Source: Saccharibacillus kuerlensis DSM 22868
GTDB lineage: Bacteria; Bacillota; Bacilli; Paenibacillales; Paenibacillaceae
Reading direction: 5' to 3'
NCBI RefSeq assembly: GCF_000378145.1
Contig: NZ_KB899286.1
Location: forward strand, 43,413 to 107,412
DNA: 64,000 bases
Under the pieces are notes generated by a model. That model did not search any database. It was not told where the DNA came from and saw nothing but the letters and a program-made list of their open reading frames with translations. The translations under genes were made by a program, and so were the position numbers. Within the stretch, counting starts at the first letter, position 1. Every line of letters starts with the position of its first letter. Below are positions 15,977 through 25,355 of this stretch, one piece after another.

Positions 15977-16019
15977 GAAAAGAGCGCATCCCGCCATGGC
16001 GAAGATGCGCTCTTTTTTG
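15977..16019 (+). terminator. Terminator after the GlsB-like gene
   Basis: AAAAGAGCGCATC pairs with GATGCGCTCTTTT, with CGCC/GGCG near the loop, and is followed by T residues. It could serve both strands. Confidence 0.85.
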
Positions 16020-16082: not shown

Positions 16083-16427
16083 TTAGCTATTCAGGTAAGC
16101 TTCTGCATCGTCAAGCTTTTCGAACGAAACAACGATATCGCCGAACATACGCTTCATCTGCATTTTCGACACGGCAGAACCTGTATAATAAGCCCATTTT
16201 GTCAGGCCTTTCTCTACAGACAGTTCACCTAGCGGAGCTAATGCCACCGCGACTTCCTGTGTGAACAATTTTCCTTTGCTCAGATCTGTCAGACCTGTAA
16301 AACCTGGTTTCACTTTAGTCAGCGCCGCTTTGTATTCTCTGTTATACGCCTCGACTTCATCCATAGTAATACTTTCTACCGTGCAGATCAGGCGATTTTG
16401 CGCTGGCAGGTATTCAATTTTGAACAT
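16083..16427 (-). CDS. Small STAS/SpoIIAA-like protein
   Basis: The 114-residue cytoplasmic protein has the alternating strand-helix pattern of the SpoIIAA-like/STAS fold (FKIEYLPAQNRLICTVESI, then GFTGLTDLSKGKL and VALAPLGEL). No phosphorylatable Ser of the classical anti-anti-sigma motif is obvious. The function is unknown. It lies downstream of the NRPS on the same strand, but a promoter and a 116-nt gap separate them, so it is probably independent. GGAGGGG precedes the ATG. Confidence 0.55.
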   Translation of the reverse strand: MFKIEYLPAQNRLICTVESITMDEVEAYNREYKAALTKVKPGFTGLTDLSKGKLFTQEVAVALAPLGELSVEKGLTKWAYYTGSAVSKMQMKRMFGDIVVSFEKLDDAEAYLNS

Positions 16428-16543: not shown

Positions 16544-19500
16544 TTATTCCAAAAATCCTGTTTGCTTGGCATAGGCCAGCATTCGTGCCACCATCGTATC
16601 GTCCATCTTCTTCCACTGGAACCCGAGCCCTTCCAAGTAAGCAGTGGTGCGCTCTGAAGCAATTTCGAAACGAGTTTGAATCTGAGCACTTTCCAACCAT
16701 CCATAGTGCAGCATAATCTTATCGATTTCCGTACGCGACTCGCCTGCTAAAAATTTACTCATAATTTCGTCGACAAATTCCGCGAATTCCAGCGTTTTAA
16801 TCGGACGTCCTACGTGCTTATCCGTCAAAATTCGATACATGCTCTCCAAGTTCGGATTCAGCAGATGAAAGATTTCGTTCTGCAAATTCTCGGGTCTCAT
16901 CAGCAGCAGGATAGCCTGGCTTATTCCATCCACGTAGGAAAAATCCGTGTCCGGTTCAAGCTTGGGAACTATGCCGAGACGAACAAACGACTGCAGCATC
17001 GTATAGAACGCATTTTCCCCAATATTTTCTTGGAAGCGTCCTGTTTCCGAATGAAACACAACATTGCCCAGACGATAAATGCTTGTCCGCAGCCCTCGCT
17101 GTCTCGCCTCCACGACCATTTCCTCGGCTTCAAACTTGGTCTTGGCATAATAATTTTCATATTCCTGACCCAAATTGAGATCGTACTCGCTGAAGAATGC
17201 CTCTTCACACTGCGGAATGATTCCGGTAGCGACGCCTAACGTCGAAATATGATGGAAGTCTTTCCGACGATCGGACTCCGCTAGGCGAAGCAGCATTTCC
17301 GTTGCTTCGACGTTATGACGCTTGAAGTCTTCGTAACTGCCATAGTGCTTGACTGTAGCAGCTGCGTGAACAATTGCGTCCGTCTCACTTGCTAACCGAA
17401 TATAAGTCTCATCCGACAGACCCATGCGATCTTCCGACAGGTCGCCGCTCAATACTTGAAGACGGGACTGTTCCTCGACAAGCGACCCTTCGCCGAAGTA
17501 GAAATCAAGCTTTGCACGAATACGCCGGAAAGCCTGAGCGTCGTTGTCTCCACGTACAATTGCATAAACGTTCCAGTTGGTGTGCATCAGCATGTCACGC
17601 AGCATATGCACGCCAACATAACCGGTCGCGCCGGTCAGCAGAACTCCCCGATAATTTCGAAGTTGTTCGAAATCGACGGAAGCGGCATCGGCTGTAGACC
17701 GGCGGAGGTACGTCTCGCGAGCTTCGAACAACGTATCTTCACTCTGCTTGCGGCTGGCTTCCTTCAATTCTTCCAACTTTTCTACAATACGATTGGATGC
17801 AGGCTTTACGACGCCGGCAAGCTCTGCGAGCGTCTGATGTTCGAATACGTCATTGATGCTGAGTTCGAACTGCTCTTGAAGACGCGCTACCATGACCGCC
17901 GCCTTCAGCGAATGACCGCCGAGTTCAAAGAAATTATCACTGCGGCCGATTCGCTCTGCGCCCAGCACAGCCTGCCATACTTCCGCTATCTTCCGCTCGG
18001 TCTCGTCCTGCGGCGCTGCATATTCGCTTTCGGACATTCTTTCGCCCGGCTGCGGCTCCGGAAGTGCACGACGATCAATCTTGCCGTTCGGTGTCAGCGG
18101 CATGGCATCCAATTGTACGAAGTACGAAGGAACCATGTAATCCGGCAGACGATCGGCCAGATGGTCGCGCAGCTCACGCTGGGAGACCGGAGACGAAGAA
18201 GCGGTATACGCACACAGATATTTGCCGCCTGTCTTGTCTTCCTTCGCCAATACGATCGTTTCTTTGACTGAATCATGCTCCAGCAGTGCCGTTTCGATCT
18301 CGCCCAATTCGATACGGAATCCGCGAATCTTGACCTGATGGTCCAAGCGTCCGAGGAATTCCAACTCCCCATCTGCGTTCCATCTCGCCAAGTCTCCTGT
18401 TTTGTACATACGTTCATTTTCGACAAATGGATCGGGCAAATAGCGTTCCTGCGTCAGCTGAGGCTGATTGTAATAACCTCGTCCTACGCATTCGCCTGCA
18501 ATATACAGTTCGCCGGCTGTTCCTCTCGGCTGCAAATTCAGCTTGTCGTTCAGGATATAGATCCTTGTATTGGTAATTGGTCTGCCAATTGGAGGCAGCT
18601 CAGGAATTAAGCCAACCGGGTCAATCGTATATGCAGTTGCCACATGCGTCTCCGAAGGCCCGTAATGGTTGTGCAGGAAAATACCGTGACGGCGAAGATG
18701 CTCTTGGAATTTCTCCGGTACAACCAATTGTTCACCCGCCGTAACGATATGACGGATACAGGTCGGGAAGCGTTCCTCGTATTGTTTTTCGCTCAAAATA
18801 AATTTCAAGAACGACACCGGCATAAACAAGACACTAATCTGTTGTTCTTCGATTAATTGAAGCAGACGGCCGACTTCGCGCCGCATCTCACTGCGAATCA
18901 AGCACAACGTGCCGCCTGCCAAAAGTGTCGACCAAATCTCCTGCGAGCAAACATCAAAGCTGAGTGTTGTGAACTGCAGAACCCGTCCGGTGTAATCGAC
19001 ATTCGTTTGCGTGTATTCGTAATGAAGCAGGTTGATCATATTGCGATGCTCCAGCATAACCCCCTTCGGTCGTCCTGTCGTACCTGAAGTGTAGATTACA
19101 TAGAGCAGATCTTCCGCACTGCTTCGGGCAGGAGGATTCTCTGTCTGCTGTGAGTAGGCTTCCTCTTCGTCCAGATACAGTCGTTCCCCATCAAATCTGA
19201 ACTTGTCTCCCAAATGGCGCTGAGTCAACAACAGATCCGATCCGCTGTTCTCCATCATATACAGAATACGATCTTCCGGATACTCCGGGTCGATAGGTAC
19301 ATAAGCTCCACCCGCTTTGAGAACAGCAAGCAGACCGACAATCATCTCTAGCGAGCGATCGAGCATAAGCCCAACCAATTTATCGGCAGTTATGCCCTTT
19401 TCCATAAGTGTATGCGCAAGGCAGTTGGCCCGCTCATTCAATTCTGCATAGGTAAGGGACTTCCCTTCGAACGTGATCGCTGTATGATGCGGGATCTCTG

Positions 19501-22500
19501 CGGCACGGCGCTCAAACGCCTGCTGAATCGTTAGGCTCCGATCGTAATCCGAAGCCGTGTCATTCAGGTCATATATAAGCGATTCCTGCTCTTCGCTGGC
19601 CAGCATCGGCAGCGCGTGCAGTGTGCAATGCTCATTGTCGGCCGCAGCTTCAAGCAAACGGATATAATGATCGGCCATAGCCCGAATCGTGCTCTGTTCG
19701 AACAGATCAGTGCCGTACTGAAAGTCGACGCGGATGCCGTCTTCATGTTCCGTAATATCAGCCATCAGATCGTACTTGGCAATTTTCGGCGCATACGGTT
19801 GAGTTCTTGTTTGGGCACCTGCAAAATCGGGAGCCAGACTGCCTGTATTTTGCATGACGAATAAAGTATCGAACAACGGGCTGCGTCCCGCGTTACGCGG
19901 TACGTTCAGCTCGTTCACCAACTCGCCGAGCTCATACTCCTGATGATCGAATGCACTCAACAGCTGTGCTTTAACTTCTTGAAGATACTCGGCGAACGTC
20001 TTCTTTTTATCCGGGTATGTCCGCAGCGGTAGTGTATTGACGAACATGCCGATTACATGGTGCAGCTCTTCGCGGCCTCGATTGGCAACAGGAACCCCGA
20101 CGACGAGATCTTCCTGTCCCGCGTAGCGGCTGAGCAGTGTACCGTACGCCGCCAGCATGACCATAAACAAAGTTGTGCCGGTACGATCAGCCAACTTTTT
20201 CAATTCTTGCTGCAGTTCTGCGCCAATTTCGCTGTGCAGTGTATCGCCGTCGAAGCTCTGTTTTTCGGGACGAGGCTTGTCGAGCGGCAGTTGAAGCATC
20301 GGCAGCTCGCCGGCCAGCTGTTCACGCCAATAACCAAGCTGCGCTTCGCGAATAGAAGCTGCGGCTTCGCGATCGTACCAAACCGAGAAATCTTTGAACT
20401 GAATTCTTAAAGGTTCAAGAGATTCCCCTCGGTAAAGCTGGGACCATTCTTCAAAGAAGACATGCATCGATATGCCGTCGACCGCAATATGATGGAAGTC
20501 GAGCATGACGAAATGAAGCTCTGCTCCGCAGGATACAAGACCTGCGCGCATAAGCGGTGCGCGGCTTAAGTCGAATGGCCGGACGAAATTATCCATCAAA
20601 CGCGAGACATCCTCTTCCTGCGCCTGCAAAAGTGCAAGGCGCAGTTCGGCGTGATCATGTACGCGCTGCACGATGCGTTCGCCCAGCAGTTCAAATGAAG
20701 TTCGCAGCGATTCATGCCGCCGGATTAACTGCTGCAGCGAGCTCTCCAAACGTTCAGGATCCACTGCGCCTTCAATACGCAGCAGCATAGGCGCGTTATA
20801 CGCCTTGTTCGCGCCCTCCATCTGTTCGATGAAGAACAAGCGGCTCTGTGCAGGATAAGCGGGATAGTGGTCAGTCGGCAGCACAGCCGGAATCGACAAG
20901 TGCTGTGGGAGCGAAGCGTTTCGCATGCCGGCACGCTCGGCAATTACCGCAGCTTGGGTCCGGACTGTTGTATATTCAAACAGTTCGCGGATCGACAAGT
21001 TCACACCAAAATCGCGTTCGATTCGAGCCCGCAGAACAGCCGCCTGCAGGGAATGGCCTCCAATATCAAAGAAACGATCGAGCACTCCGAAGCGGTCGTG
21101 TCCCAATACTTCTCTCCAGAGAATATGCAGCCGCCCTTCTTCCTCTCCAGCTGCTGGCTCGTAGGCGGCGGTCTCCCTAGCCTGCGGTTCCGGAAGCGAA
21201 CGCCGATCGATCTTGCCGTTGGCGTTGACCGGAAGTTTCGTCATCGTCACAAAGTGAGCCGGGACCATATAATCCGGCAGACTCCGCCCCAATTCGGCGG
21301 CCCATTCGGCATAAGTCAATTCCGTATCTGACTCGACGTAAGCACAGAGATAGGAATCGCCGGATGAGTCTTTCAAAGCCGCAACAATACAATCGCGTAC
21401 GTCTTCCCGCTCCAGAATGCGCTGCTCGATCTCTCCGATCTCGATACGGAACCCCCGGATCTTGACTTGATGATCCAAGCGGCCCAAGAATTCGATCGTC
21501 CCGTCTCGTTTCCAACGCGCCAAATCTCCCGTACGGTACATGCGAACGCCTTCGCGGTAAGGATGCGAAGAGAACTTTTCCGCCGTAAGCTCTGGGCGGT
21601 TGAGATAGCCGCGGGCCAGTCCGGCCCCTGCTACGCAGAGTTCGCCTGCCACTTCGACCGGCTGCAGACTGCCGTAAGCGTCCAAAATCATAATTTGCGA
21701 TCCGCGAACCGGCTTGCCGATTGGAATATTGTCCTCCATTTCGGTAACGAGATGGGAGCTGGTCACGATTGTGTTTTCCGTTGGACCGTAACAGTTATGC
21801 AGTTCATAAGGACGGGGACGGAACGTCTTGAGCTTATCGCCGCCGGTCAGCAGCACTCGCAGCGAATAGTTATCGTACTCCATGAATTGTTCGCAGAGTT
21901 GAGTCGGCAAAAATGCGATCGTGATGCCTTTTTCATTAAAATGCCTGTTCAGTCCTAACGGATCCAGTCTCAAATCTTCGGGAATCATATGAATGGAGGC
22001 TCCACAGAGCAGGTAAGGGAAGATTTCCCACACCGAAGCATCGAACCCAAAGCCCGCGTATTTGACAGTCCGATCTTCCGATGTCACCCGGAAATGGTCG
22101 ATATGCCACTGTGCCAAATTCACAAGCGAGCGATGTTCAATGATCACACCTTTCGGCGTACCGGTAGAACCCGAGGTGTAGATAATATAAGCAGGTTCAT
22201 CCGATGTTCCAACATATTCTTCCTCGACTTCCATTCCCCAGTCTCGATTGTTGTCGATGTGCAGCTTTTTGCCAGCATAGCCTGCTGGAGCTTCAAGTCC
22301 CGGAGTTAGCAGCAGCAGATCGGACCCGCTGTCTTCCAGCATAAATTGAACCCGCTCTTGCGGATATTCGGGATCGATCGGCAGGTAAGCGGCTCCGGCT
22401 TTCAAGACAGCCAATACGGACAAGATCATTTCAATTGACGGCTTTGCCATTATGCCTACGATCTCTCCGCCAACCAATCCGGATTTGCGCAATTCGTACG

Positions 22501-23386
22501 CCAACACATCCGTACGGCGGTCGAGCTCTCCGTAACTGAGTGTGCCGTCTTCGCACACAACCGCATCGCGTTCCGAAATTTGCAGCGCTGTTTCTTTGAT
22601 CATCCGGTGAATGGGAAGGTTCGCTTCAAGCGAAGCCGCCCCGTTCCCCCAAAGATTCAGCAGAACCTCCCGCTCCTGTTCGCCCAGTAGATCCTCTTCG
22701 CCGATCCTTGAATCCGGAACGGTAGTCATACGAATGACAATACCTTGCAGATGGGCCAGTGCCGCCTGCACGAATTGACTGTTGTAAGCGGATTTGCGAA
22801 AAGCGGCCTGGGCTTGAATTCGCTCCTTGCCGGAGAAAGTGATAAACAAATCGCAGCCCGACGACTCCAGCGCTTCGGACGCAGTCTCGGTCAAATTGAA
22901 TCCGATCCCCGTATTGTAAGGACAATCTACGGTCCCGGATGCGTACCACTCGGCAAAGTCCGACGGTTCGAGCGACAGCTCGGCCGCCTCGCGAAGATGC
23001 TTGGATATTTCTTCCGTGCGAATCCGAAATGAATGCTGTCCGCTGCTTTTCAACAGCATAGGAATCATTCCTTCGGAGGCCGGCATATAGACCGCAAATG
23101 CCAAATTTTCAGTACGCAGATAACGCTGCAGCAGGACTGACCAAGCCGCACATACGATTTCATGGCATAACGAAGCGGAATCGACTGCGGGAAACTCACG
23201 TTCTACCGTGTCGATTCCTTGCGCAGGGATTATCGTTTCACCGGTCAGCAGCGTTTTCTCCTCCACATTCCGCAGCTGCTCCAGCCAGTAGGCTTTTATA
23301 TCCGGTACATTTTTCAATTCAGTATTCATCGTTTGTATTTTTCCCCTTCCGCATGTTGACTGCCCTCTGTAATTCGTAACGTTCAT
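16544..23386 (-). CDS. Dimodular NRPS with terminal reductase (pyrazinone/aureusimine-type)
   Basis: A 2280-residue nonribosomal peptide synthetase. Order: a degenerate condensation-like N-terminus (20-235, no HHxxxDG); A1 (about 255-740; YIIYTSGSTG at 400-409); carrier T1 (GGHS, Ser779); C domain (840-1270; HHIAVDG at 965-971); A2 (1285-1775; YTSGTTG near 1432); T2 (GGHS, Ser1826); NADPH reductase (1910-2280; LLTGATGYVG, YAKTK with Tyr2080/Lys2084). It should make a dipeptide and release it reductively as an aldehyde, which can cyclise to an imine and oxidise to a pyrazinone. Specificity residues by GrsA alignment: A1 DAWFLGCIVK (Leu-like), A2 DVQFVAHVAK (nearest remembered code proline). 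AusA of Staphylococcus shares the plan. An alternative start is Met20. The PPTase gene is 3 nt upstream. Confidence 0.92.
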   Translation of the reverse strand: MNVTNYRGQSTCGRGKIQTMNTELKNVPDIKAYWLEQLRNVEEKTLLTGETIIPAQGIDTVEREFPAVDSASLCHEIVCAAWSVLLQRYLRTENLAFAVYMPASEGMIPMLLKSSGQHSFRIRTEEISKHLREAAELSLEPSDFAEWYASGTVDCPYNTGIGFNLTETASEALESSGCDLFITFSGKERIQAQAAFRKSAYNSQFVQAALAHLQGIVIRMTTVPDSRIGEEDLLGEQEREVLLNLWGNGAASLEANLPIHRMIKETALQISERDAVVCEDGTLSYGELDRRTDVLAYELRKSGLVGGEIVGIMAKPSIEMILSVLAVLKAGAAYLPIDPEYPQERVQFMLEDSGSDLLLLTPGLEAPAGYAGKKLHIDNNRDWGMEVEEEYVGTSDEPAYIIYTSGSTGTPKGVIIEHRSLVNLAQWHIDHFRVTSEDRTVKYAGFGFDASVWEIFPYLLCGASIHMIPEDLRLDPLGLNRHFNEKGITIAFLPTQLCEQFMEYDNYSLRVLLTGGDKLKTFRPRPYELHNCYGPTENTIVTSSHLVTEMEDNIPIGKPVRGSQIMILDAYGSLQPVEVAGELCVAGAGLARGYLNRPELTAEKFSSHPYREGVRMYRTGDLARWKRDGTIEFLGRLDHQVKIRGFRIEIGEIEQRILEREDVRDCIVAALKDSSGDSYLCAYVESDTELTYAEWAAELGRSLPDYMVPAHFVTMTKLPVNANGKIDRRSLPEPQARETAAYEPAAGEEEGRLHILWREVLGHDRFGVLDRFFDIGGHSLQAAVLRARIERDFGVNLSIRELFEYTTVRTQAAVIAERAGMRNASLPQHLSIPAVLPTDHYPAYPAQSRLFFIEQMEGANKAYNAPMLLRIEGAVDPERLESSLQQLIRRHESLRTSFELLGERIVQRVHDHAELRLALLQAQEEDVSRLMDNFVRPFDLSRAPLMRAGLVSCGAELHFVMLDFHHIAVDGISMHVFFEEWSQLYRGESLEPLRIQFKDFSVWYDREAAASIREAQLGYWREQLAGELPMLQLPLDKPRPEKQSFDGDTLHSEIGAELQQELKKLADRTGTTLFMVMLAAYGTLLSRYAGQEDLVVGVPVANRGREELHHVIGMFVNTLPLRTYPDKKKTFAEYLQEVKAQLLSAFDHQEYELGELVNELNVPRNAGRSPLFDTLFVMQNTGSLAPDFAGAQTRTQPYAPKIAKYDLMADITEHEDGIRVDFQYGTDLFEQSTIRAMADHYIRLLEAAADNEHCTLHALPMLASEEQESLIYDLNDTASDYDRSLTIQQAFERRAAEIPHHTAITFEGKSLTYAELNERANCLAHTLMEKGITADKLVGLMLDRSLEMIVGLLAVLKAGGAYVPIDPEYPEDRILYMMENSGSDLLLTQRHLGDKFRFDGERLYLDEEEAYSQQTENPPARSSAEDLLYVIYTSGTTGRPKGVMLEHRNMINLLHYEYTQTNVDYTGRVLQFTTLSFDVCSQEIWSTLLAGGTLCLIRSEMRREVGRLLQLIEEQQISVLFMPVSFLKFILSEKQYEERFPTCIRHIVTAGEQLVVPEKFQEHLRRHGIFLHNHYGPSETHVATAYTIDPVGLIPELPPIGRPITNTRIYILNDKLNLQPRGTAGELYIAGECVGRGYYNQPQLTQERYLPDPFVENERMYKTGDLARWNADGELEFLGRLDHQVKIRGFRIELGEIETALLEHDSVKETIVLAKEDKTGGKYLCAYTASSSPVSQRELRDHLADRLPDYMVPSYFVQLDAMPLTPNGKIDRRALPEPQPGERMSESEYAAPQDETERKIAEVWQAVLGAERIGRSDNFFELGGHSLKAAVMVARLQEQFELSINDVFEHQTLAELAGVVKPASNRIVEKLEELKEASRKQSEDTLFEARETYLRRSTADAASVDFEQLRNYRGVLLTGATGYVGVHMLRDMLMHTNWNVYAIVRGDNDAQAFRRIRAKLDFYFGEGSLVEEQSRLQVLSGDLSEDRMGLSDETYIRLASETDAIVHAAATVKHYGSYEDFKRHNVEATEMLLRLAESDRRKDFHHISTLGVATGIIPQCEEAFFSEYDLNLGQEYENYYAKTKFEAEEMVVEARQRGLRTSIYRLGNVVFHSETGRFQENIGENAFYTMLQSFVRLGIVPKLEPDTDFSYVDGISQAILLLMRPENLQNEIFHLLNPNLESMYRILTDKHVGRPIKTLEFAEFVDEIMSKFLAGESRTEIDKIMLHYGWLESAQIQTRFEIASERTTAYLEGLGFQWKKMDDTMVARMLAYAKQTGFLE

Positions 23387-23389
23387 AAC

Positions 23390-24214
23390 TTAGATTAACC
23401 TGCAAAATCGCTGTGCCAGGCTGCTTGCGTCAAGCATGTTGATTTCCGACGCCGGACGTTCTTCAGGTCTGCGACAGACAGATAATACATAAGGCTCGGA
23501 AATCGGAAGGCCAAGGGACAACCGTTCAATTATCCATGGCTTGCTGTCACAATCGCTTGCCTCTGCACGAAAAAGCTGCCCTTCGCAGCGAGGATTGAAC
23601 GACGCCAACATACAATCGCCGCTTAATCCTGTTCCCTCCGCTTTAAGCCAACTTTCCAACATCGTCCAGCGCTCATAAAAAGATTGTAGTTCTTCCGGCT
23701 CTGCCAACCCGCCTATGGCGGCAGGGGAAGTTTCGCCAAGCAGCGTCCGAATCACTGCCGCATCAAGCGGATCGCTGCGCTCAACATCGACACCGACTTC
23801 CAGATCTGCCAGCGCACACACCACAAGCTTGCCTGAGTGAGAGAGGTTGAATGAGGGCGCATATTCGTAATCTAGATACGGTTTGCCGTATTTCCCCCGA
23901 CGAAACACCAGTTCCCGGTAGCCAATGCCTAGACGCTCGCCGAGCAGCACGGATACAAGCATATGTGAAGCGGCTTTCAGCAGGCGGTCTTCTTTCCGAA
24001 CCTGACGGATCACACGCTCTCTTTCTTGAGGAGCAAAAGTGGAAATCAGACGATTCCACTCCCATTCGTCAAGAGAAAAATCAAGGTAAAAGGCATATAC
24101 TTCGATAGGTATACGTCCCCTTTCTATACTTTTGCATAAACCGTATGTGACGGTCTCAACTTGCTCTTCCTGCCGTCGATACCAAAAAAACTCACTTAAA
24201 GAATATCGGAACAT
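23390..24214 (-). CDS. Sfp-type 4'-phosphopantetheinyl transferase
   Basis: It transfers phosphopantetheine from CoA to the carrier serines of the adjacent NRPS. Sfp motifs are present: SFNLSHSGK, GVDVERSD (Asp143, Glu145), and FYERWTMLESWLKAEGTGL (Glu187, Lys191). Leu186 stands where Sfp has the conserved Lys of WxxKE. The protein aligns with Sfp from about residue 37 (IEVYAFYLD). The 36 preceding residues look non-homologous, and ATG 24214 has almost no ribosome site. AAAGGGGA lies before codons 35-37 (ATA, CCT, ATC), so a rare start near 24112 is possible. The gene is first in the NRPS operon and is the counterpart of ausB. Confidence 0.88.
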   Translation of the reverse strand: MFRYSLSEFFWYRRQEEQVETVTYGLCKSIERGRIPIEVYAFYLDFSLDEWEWNRLISTFAPQERERVIRQVRKEDRLLKAASHMLVSVLLGERLGIGYRELVFRRGKYGKPYLDYEYAPSFNLSHSGKLVVCALADLEVGVDVERSDPLDAAVIRTLLGETSPAAIGGLAEPEELQSFYERWTMLESWLKAEGTGLSGDCMLASFNPRCEGQLFRAEASDCDSKPWIIERLSLGLPISEPYVLSVCRRPEERPASEINMLDASSLAQRFCRLI

Positions 24215-24404: not shown

Positions 24405-25355
24405 ATGACGGAAAAAATCGATCTGGACAGACAACGGCTCAGTATTGAAGCTGCCCGGCTGTATTACCTGTCTGATTACAGCCAGCAGGACATCGCGGTT
24501 CGACTCGGCGTCTCGCGCCCGACTGTCTCGCGGCTGCTTCAGTACGCCAAAGAAAATGGATTTGTTCGCATCAGCATTTCCGATCCGCTTGAAGATCTCG
24601 ACGCATTGGGGGCGGAACTGGCTCGCCGCTTCGGACTCCAAGCTGCCCGAGTCTGCTATTCGCCGCAGAACGAGTACCGTGAAATTCGCCAGAGCGTTGC
24701 AGCTGCAGCCGCGGAATATTTAGAAGAAACCATTCAAGATGGAGACATTATCGGAATCACCTGGGGAACGACTATGCATGCACTGGCCCTATCGTTAAAG
24801 CACAAGCCCGTACGGGGTGTCGAAATCGTTCAGCTCAAAGGCGGAGTCAGCCACTCGCAAGTTCCTACTTATGCTGCAGAAACGGCCAATCTGTTTGCGG
24901 AAGCATTCGGCACCATTGCCCGTTATCTGCCTCTACCCGTGATTTTCGACAGTTTCGAGTTAAAACGAATGGTGGAGGAAGACCGCCATATCCAGCGCAT
25001 TATCGAACTGGGCCGACAGGCCAACGTTGCCGTCTTTACTGTCGGAACCGTCGAGGAAGATGCCCTGCTGTTTAAACTGGGGTATTTTGACGACAAGCAG
25101 CGGCGGATGCTGCAGGCGGCAGGCGCGGGAGATATCTGTTCCCGTTTCTTCGACGACCAAGGAAAGATTTGCAGCGAGGAAGTGAATGCGCGAACCGTAG
25201 GCATCGACCTGGAGGAATTGCGGAGAAAAGAAAAAGCAATTCTGGTTGCGGGAGGACCGCGTAAGATTCGGGCCATACGCGCTGCACTCACTGGACGCTA
25301 CGCGAATATTTTAGTAACGGACCAATTTACCGCTATTTCTCTGCTGGCGGATTGA
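24405..25355 (+). CDS. deoR: SorC-family deoxyribonucleoside regulator DeoR
   Basis: The 316-residue repressor has an N-terminal helix-turn-helix (YSQQDIAVRLGVSRPTVSRLLQYA, about residues 25-48) and a SorC sugar-phosphate-binding domain (DIIGITWGTTMHAL, then VEIVQLKGGVSHSQ, VFTVGTVEED, and a terminal ILVTDQFTAISLL). In B. subtilis this protein represses dra-nupC-pdp and is released by deoxyribose 5-phosphate. The whole deo gene set lies 1.5 kb downstream behind a matching palindrome, so the same role is likely. AAGGGGA precedes ATG 24405. It is divergent from the PPTase-NRPS operon, with no evident functional link. Confidence 0.92.
   Translation: MTEKIDLDRQRLSIEAARLYYLSDYSQQDIAVRLGVSRPTVSRLLQYAKENGFVRISISDPLEDLDALGAELARRFGLQAARVCYSPQNEYREIRQSVAAAAAEYLEETIQDGDIIGITWGTTMHALALSLKHKPVRGVEIVQLKGGVSHSQVPTYAAETANLFAEAFGTIARYLPLPVIFDSFELKRMVEEDRHIQRIIELGRQANVAVFTVGTVEEDALLFKLGYFDDKQRRMLQAAGAGDICSRFFDDQGKICSEEVNARTVGIDLEELRRKEKAILVAGGPRKIRAIRAALTGRYANILVTDQFTAISLLAD

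Follow-up and report, generated by a model that had tools for sequence, protein, structure and literature searches.

A locus of Saccharibacillus kuerlensis for a predicted leucine-proline dipeptide released by reduction, and its conserved STAS-fold partner gene

Can a locus that follows the plan of the aureusimine synthetase be expected to make an aureusimine, and which genes belong to it? This question is raised by a locus on the minus strand of contig NZ_KB899286.1 of Saccharibacillus kuerlensis DSM 22868 (positions 16544-24214 of the 64,000-nt stretch analysed here, which we call the window). A preliminary description had seen in it a nonribosomal peptide synthetase (NRPS) with the domain order adenylation-carrier-condensation-adenylation-carrier-reductase (A-T-C-A-T-R), preceded by a 4'-phosphopantetheinyl transferase (PPTase), and had proposed a leucine-proline product released by reduction. 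We found both open reading frames as described, and Pfam bore out the domain order; the kinship with the Staphylococcus proteins AusA and AusB did not hold, and a third, conserved gene had been overlooked. On balance, we consider it probable that the locus encodes a self-sufficient Leu-Pro dipeptide line with reductive release, whose partner, a STAS-fold protein joined in most relatives by a chemotaxis-type transducer, has a signalling or regulatory role.

Substrate codes and relatives of the synthetase

Pfam assigns to the NRPS two AMP-binding domains, two PP-binding domains, one Condensation domain and a terminal NAD_binding_4 reductase domain. The preliminary description had allowed that reductase or carrier motifs might prove broken on a full alignment, or that the codes might turn out to be those for Val and Tyr/Phe. 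The motifs are intact: HHIAVDG in the C domain and DIGGHSL and ELGGHSL in the T domains are unbroken, and GATGYxG, ST and YxxxK are invariant in all 16 aligned R domains. With two A domains, one C domain and a terminal R domain with intact motifs, the enzyme belongs to the broad class of reductive dipeptide (monoketopiperazine or pyrazinone) NRPSs. The codes, too, differ from those of AusA-type loci. Our own extraction gave DAWFLGCIVK for A1 and DVQFVAHVAK for A2, letter for letter as read by eye before, and the same by global alignment and by domain hidden Markov model (HMM); only in some distant relatives (L047-L062) do the two readings part, at two A2 positions, for which we used that of the domain HMM. 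As a check, the extractor returned DAFWLGGTFK/DAWSVGAVIK, DAFWLGGTFK/DAMSVGAVIK and DAFLIGATIK/DAWSVGAVIK for three AusA-type loci (L167, L169 and L168, respectively), the first of which we take to be the code pair for Val followed by an aromatic residue.

The A2 pocket region matched three distinct sequences among solved structures: tyrocidine synthase 2 (186.6 bits), gramicidin S synthase 2 (186.1 bits) and a third at 51.2 bits. The first two chains are Pro modules. The iturin Pro code is printed as DVQFIAHVXK (PMC2866473), and V236 together with Q239 marks many Pro domains (PMC12283262); A2 carries both residues in a pocket like those of TycB1 and GrsB1. Furthermore, DVQF[VIL]AHV[AV]K is kept in all 33 rows of one clade in our reductase tree. 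Owing to this pocket match, the printed codes and the conservation throughout the clade, the assignment of A2 as a proline domain is well supported at the sequence level. At 8 of 10 positions A1 equals DAWFLGNVVK, the code with which PMC12283262 opens its list of those most frequent for Leu, Ile and Val, and 23 of the 33 rows keep DAWF[LV]GC[IV]VK. Judged by its code only, A1 thus appears leucine-like, an assignment with fair support.

To place the enzyme among its relatives we searched the R domain against 295 genomes of the family and found matches at 1e-30 in 142 of them, many in frames of other lengths and therefore in other architectures. The resulting tree has 90 rows; its bootstrap is not fully settled, and several long branches and joins are flagged. 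The 33 Pro-code enzymes form one clade without any other row (99/96; clade I), next to which stands clade II, nine enzymes with DAFF[LF]GITFK plus L108 (100/97), with the AusA-type rows far off. The clade II enzymes (L098-L102 and L104-L107) are dimodular reductive NRPSs whose second code is mostly DAFWLGGTFK; L101 and L106 carry DAFFFGITFK in both modules. Within clade I, the ten rows other than the 23 (ehimensis, elgii, tyrfis, tianmuensis and kin; L079-L087 and L103) keep the Pro code and have module-1 codes of the DALFMGV type, once DAVLVGAIFK; as they form a single branch (100/100), we count this as one change. Two further observations concern relatives. The NRPS of another genome of the genus (L048, genome G124) is shortened, by a deletion or perhaps by collapse of the assembly between the two A repeats, so that A1 lies in a frame of 1237 aa and the R end in another of 233 aa, and seven Chitinophaga loci (L132, L135-L138, L141, L144) hold multi-module reductase NRPSs with a Pro-like code that has Q for H (DVQF.AQVVK).

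The STAS-fold gene and the chemotaxis-type transducer

The statement that no transporter or regulator is attached to the locus holds for known types within the window, yet it overlooks a gene for a 114-aa protein that lies 116 nt downstream of the NRPS gene on the same strand; the chemoreceptor-like gene found in most relatives and the transporter gene found upstream in four are both missing here. The small gene is closely tied to the synthetase. A relative of it stands within 1.2 kb and on the same strand at 31 of the 32 best R matches (E up to 2.1e-98) in the 295 family genomes. In the genus itself all 10 genomes that carry this NRPS have the small gene, and all six that do not carry the NRPS lack it; three of these six have another dimodular reductive NRPS (DAWFLGNVVK/DGF codes) with no STAS match in the fetched DNA. 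It follows the NRPS in all 24 Leu-code loci (23 tree rows and the shortened G124 locus) and in all nine clade II loci, where five copies were found with a clade I query (23-31% identity) and four only with a clade II query. Among 348 genomes of the phylum it has matches in only 4, all of them Paenibacillaceae.

No Pfam family passes its cut-off on the 114-aa protein, and PF11964 (SpoIIAA-like, gathering threshold 25 bits) does not list it at E up to 10, while the distant member L101 reaches 20.0 bits. The AlphaFold model (pLDDT 94.2), however, has by prediction a STAS/SpoIIAA-like fold: all 15 Foldseek hits at E up to 0.001 are STAS proteins (RsbS, SpoIIAA) or STAS-bearing transporters, with RsbS at E 2.8e-4 and TM 0.70. 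At the start of helix 2, where anti-sigma antagonists have their phospho-site, all 23 clade I sequences carry a T (21) or an S (2), and the 5 clade II sequences carry neither. Median dN/dS within the genus is 0.086 for the STAS gene (28 pairs), 0.146 for R (28 pairs) and 0.123 for the transducer gene (15 pairs); the STAS gene is under stronger constraint than R. In Paenibacillus popilliae (L089:11208-12434) three tandem copies follow the NRPS instead of one. In genome G096 (L157:5975-8332) the gene is preceded by a 652-aa frame that holds an AMP-binding domain and a sub-threshold condensation piece and is probably the remnant of an NRPS whose partner was retained.

The second partner is a gene for a methyl-accepting chemotaxis protein (MCP)-type transducer of 347-434 aa, which comes after the STAS gene in 22 of 24 Leu-code loci; all 19 aligned members contain the MCPsignal domain. 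In six Saccharibacillus proteins that were tested, a linker of about 10-15 residues lies between two hydrophobic helices and leaves almost no room for an outer ligand domain. By the same simple helix rule, five of the eight other clade I members have a single helix and the remaining three have two or three windows. In clade II a 552-568-aa MCP gene follows the STAS gene in four of nine loci, a fifth has a matching stretch, and the helices of the L105 protein lie about 130 residues apart. A copy of the transducer elsewhere in the S. kuerlensis genome was sought and rejected, the best of 32 hits (239.5 bits) lying in a 577-aa frame. A strict bond between the STAS and MCP genes was likewise rejected, since among 13 regions around unlinked STAS places, nine with a tagged STAS gene, none has an MCP match. 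The window itself has, within a longer frame, a signalling stretch of MCP type (about 1699-2838) with about 30% identity to the transducer.

The predicted product and its alternatives

The intact domains, the Pro pocket and the conserved neighbouring gene can be read directly from the DNA, and from them we infer the following route. The PPTase would arm both carrier domains; the residue loaded by A1 would be aliphatic (L-Leu most likely) and that loaded by A2 L-Pro; the C domain would join the two on T2 as Leu-Pro, which the NAD(P)H-dependent R domain would release as Leu-prolinal in a two-electron reduction. The AusA route runs from the dipeptidyl-T2 through an aldehyde to an imine (PMC12153313), and the best reading by analogy is that reduction and ring closure follow this pattern here. 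Free amine and aldehyde would then close to the bicyclic imine 3-isobutyl-tetrahydropyrrolo[1,2-a]pyrazin-4-one (C11H18N2O, [M+H]+ 195.149); oxidation of this imine may yield the fused pyrazinone ([M+H]+ 193.134). Of the earlier proposal, proline is thus well and leucine fairly supported, while reduction state and cyclisation are predictions. The STAS-fold protein would most likely bind or report the product, or regulate the pathway, and in most relatives the membrane-anchored transducer would be its second partner. With two neighbours of a signalling type, a role as signal or regulator appears likelier than one as antibiotic. A more specific picture, in which the NRPS makes an aliphatic-Pro pyrrolopyrazinone-type signal that the cytosolic STAS protein reads and the chemoreceptor-like protein relays to chemotaxis or a related pathway, and in which the branch with the other module-1 code lost both partners together, is tentative and rather unlikely.

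Several observations weigh against this reading. The best solved-structure match of the A1 pocket is A1 of LgrA, which is not known as a Leu domain, and that of the R domain is MxaA (136 bits), above AusA (117 bits). The PPTase gene stands upstream of the NRPS gene in 9 of 10 Saccharibacillus loci (it was not found in L036) and in only 4 of the 14 other Leu-code loci. With respect to the STAS gene, the exceptional R match (G059:C443) is near the beginning of a contig of 6.9 kb, of which the 5.3 kb downstream gave no STAS gene, and the NRPSs of the ehimensis/elgii/tyrfis branch have neither STAS nor MCP gene in the fetched DNA (10 of 10 loci). STAS matches at 1e-8 occur in 78 of the 295 family genomes, many of them weaker and unlinked; of 40 STAS places examined, 33 adjoin an R match and seven lie away from any, and the unlinked relatives share 28-48% identity. 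The window and L075 have no MCP gene in this position, so the transducer is dispensable. A major facilitator superfamily (MFS)-type gene upstream of the PPTase gene in four Paenibacillus loci would also fit an exported antibiotic, and our searches of the open-licence PMC literature yielded no metabolite or assay for any member.

How do the alternatives compare? That the enzyme is an AusA orthologue making Val-Tyr/Phe pyrazinones is suggested by the A-T-C-A-T-R order, the adjoining PPTase gene and the first rank of AusA and AusB among the NCBIfam matches. However, the NRPS scores 1383 bits against the AusA model NF047350 (cut-off 2500) and the PPTase 54 bits against the AusB model NF047349 (cut-off 225). 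Model NF047350 is passed in 13 of 348 genomes of the class, in three of them by single chains of 2388-2402 residues with 3261-3932 bits; the other passers listed reach the cut-off only by adding up the modules of longer frames. Moreover, DAWFLGCIVK/DVQFVAHVAK is not the Val, then Tyr/Phe pair of AusA (DAFWLGGTFK/DAWSVGAVIK in L167), the comparison by R-domain tree puts clade I apart from the three AusA-type rows with a branch of 1.7 to AusA, and no STAS or MCP match was found in the three AusA-type loci (about 10 kb each). AusA orthology is hence extremely improbable and was rejected on account of cut-offs, codes and tree. It is also very unlikely that the Leu-Pro thioester mostly leaves as a spontaneous diketopiperazine, with cyclo(Leu-Pro) a main product. 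Tyrocidine synthase 2 does match the second module over C-A-T in one stretch (816 bits), and aminoacyl-Pro thioesters on TycB1 close spontaneously to diketopiperazines, so that cyclo(Leu-Pro) may be expected as a side product; as the main route, this would make an intact, conserved R domain superfluous.

The remaining alternatives accept the peptide and differ in its release or in the role of the partner. A second reduction, to leucyl-prolinol instead of the aldehyde, is suggested by the best solved R match, the alcohol-forming MxaA, and by a further match to the MxcG model; we regard it as unlikely, as imine-forming enzymes share the dimodular plan and the free N-terminal amine, though sequence alone does not decide between two- and four-electron reduction. 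Slightly less probable still is an open-chain dipeptide aldehyde acting as protease inhibitor, with the STAS protein protecting or regulating the producer. In gut species, phevalin in its aldehyde form has been credited with inhibiting proteases (PMC12153313), but flank clustering gave no further gene family common to most loci, and Leu-prolinal should close readily because prolyl amides adopt the cis form. The alternative that we take most seriously, without expecting it to hold, is that the STAS protein handles a reactive intermediate or acts on the NRPS as carrier, cyclisation helper or stabiliser, without any signalling. The gene stands behind NRPSs of two clades with different codes and therefore may serve the enzyme rather than one product; on the other side, anti-sigma antagonists and stressosome proteins are the best-known bearers of the fold, the T or S at helix 2 is kept throughout clade I (though in none of the clade II sequences), and ten NRPSs manage without the gene.

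The exact function of natural monoketopiperazines has been called elusive (PMC12153313). Reductive dipeptide NRPSs are known in kind; the present locus would add a Leu-Pro version with a possible self-sensing cassette. It would stand for a predicted X-Pro family of reductive dipeptides, spread over Saccharibacillus and many Paenibacillus, for which exact masses can be sought; through the genetic link to a STAS protein and a transducer, it would be possible to test directly whether such molecules are signals.

Layout of the locus and comparison with known systems

The features of the locus are collected in Table 1, in the order PPTase gene, NRPS gene, STAS-fold gene along the minus strand. The NRPS more likely starts at the ATG at 23329, because GGAAGGGG stands upstream of it and the resulting length is close to that of the frames of L033, L034 and L039 (2259-2260 residues). 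Behind the STAS-fold gene a 61-nt stretch folds with -26.7 kcal/mol (z -5.1, equalled by none of 200 shuffles) into a hairpin that is probably an intrinsic terminator; it is absent from the list of the consensus terminator scan, which allowed loops of 3-8 only. The same simple scan, with this loop range, lists no terminator between the NRPS and STAS-fold genes, and the three genes would be co-transcribed.

Table 1. Coordinates of the features of the locus in the window
Feature	Position	Strand	Evidence
Sfp-type 4'-phosphopantetheinyl transferase, start uncertain	23390..24214	-	Pfam AASDHPPT_N and ACPS
Dimodular NRPS A-T-C-A-T-R, 2280 aa (2261 aa from ATG at 23329)	16544..23386	-	Open reading frame and Pfam domains
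Adenylation domain 1, code DAWFLGCIVK, leucine-like	21191..22591	-	Code extraction and literature code
Carrier domain T1 (DIGGHSL), limits approximate	20912..21124	-	Pfam and alignment
Condensation domain with HHIAVDG	19577..20872	-	Pfam and alignment
Adenylation domain 2, code DVQFVAHVAK, proline (well supported)	18059..19510	-	Domain HMM, printed codes, solved structures
Carrier domain T2 (ELGGHSL)	17810..17992	-	Pfam and alignment
Terminal thioester reductase domain, start approximate	16547..17650	-	Pfam, R alignment, solved-structure search
114-aa protein with predicted STAS fold, encoded third in the unit and kept together with the NRPS	16083..16427	-	Neighbourhood comparison and fold
Hairpin with U-rich foot, 3' of the STAS-fold gene	15978..16016	-	Folding against shuffles

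In the S. kuerlensis genome a condensation-family search finds this NRPS as the single place, and PF01648 finds two, the PPTase gene and a 154-aa, AcpS-sized frame on contig C25. The nearest named loci are those of S. alkalitolerans, S. endophyticus, S. deserti and S. sacchari. In three further Leu-code loci the PPTase gene lies downstream on the opposite strand. The MFS-type transporter gene mentioned above was found in L092, L095, L096 and L097 (Pfam was tested on L092 only), which are also the four Leu-code loci outside Saccharibacillus with a PPTase gene ahead of the NRPS gene, and its position upstream of the PPTase gene favours export in those four loci. In 8 of the 10 loci of the changed branch a DinB-type gene (Pfam on L080) occupies the STAS position behind the NRPS. 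A SorC-type regulator gene (24405-25355) was rejected as regulator of the cluster, as it is divergent from the PPTase gene and heads a run of deoxynucleoside catabolism genes that extends to 33194 (DeoC, cytidine deaminase, nucleoside transporter, metalloenzyme and two phosphorylase genes).

Among known systems, the 114-aa protein resembles RsbS, SpoIIAA and the SpoIIAA-like DUF3478 in its predicted fold, and differs from known STAS proteins by an identity of only 11-16% across the 15 Foldseek hits. The NRPS and PPTase share with AusA and AusB, the aureusimine synthetase and its partner in Staphylococcus, the A-T-C-A-T-R order in one chain, the partner PPTase and the predicted aldehyde release with ring closure; they differ in the Pro pocket of module 2, the Leu-like module 1, the distant R domain and the extra STAS-fold gene. 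Module 2 resembles the Pro modules TycB1 and GrsB1 in its proline pocket, and TycB1 aligns over the whole C-A-T; these modules, however, are parts of multi-enzyme decapeptide lines with no known reductase. In our searches of the open-licence PMC literature we recognised no paper on the product of this cluster or on its STAS partner. The closest published record is region 4 of the antiSMASH analysis of Saccharibacillus brassicae ATSA2, listed as an NRPS without a similar known cluster (PMC9867790); the pertinent part of that paper gives the listing alone and does not discuss domains, codes, product or partner genes. As the R-domain match of genome G108 falls inside its coordinates, region 4 is very probably this cluster.

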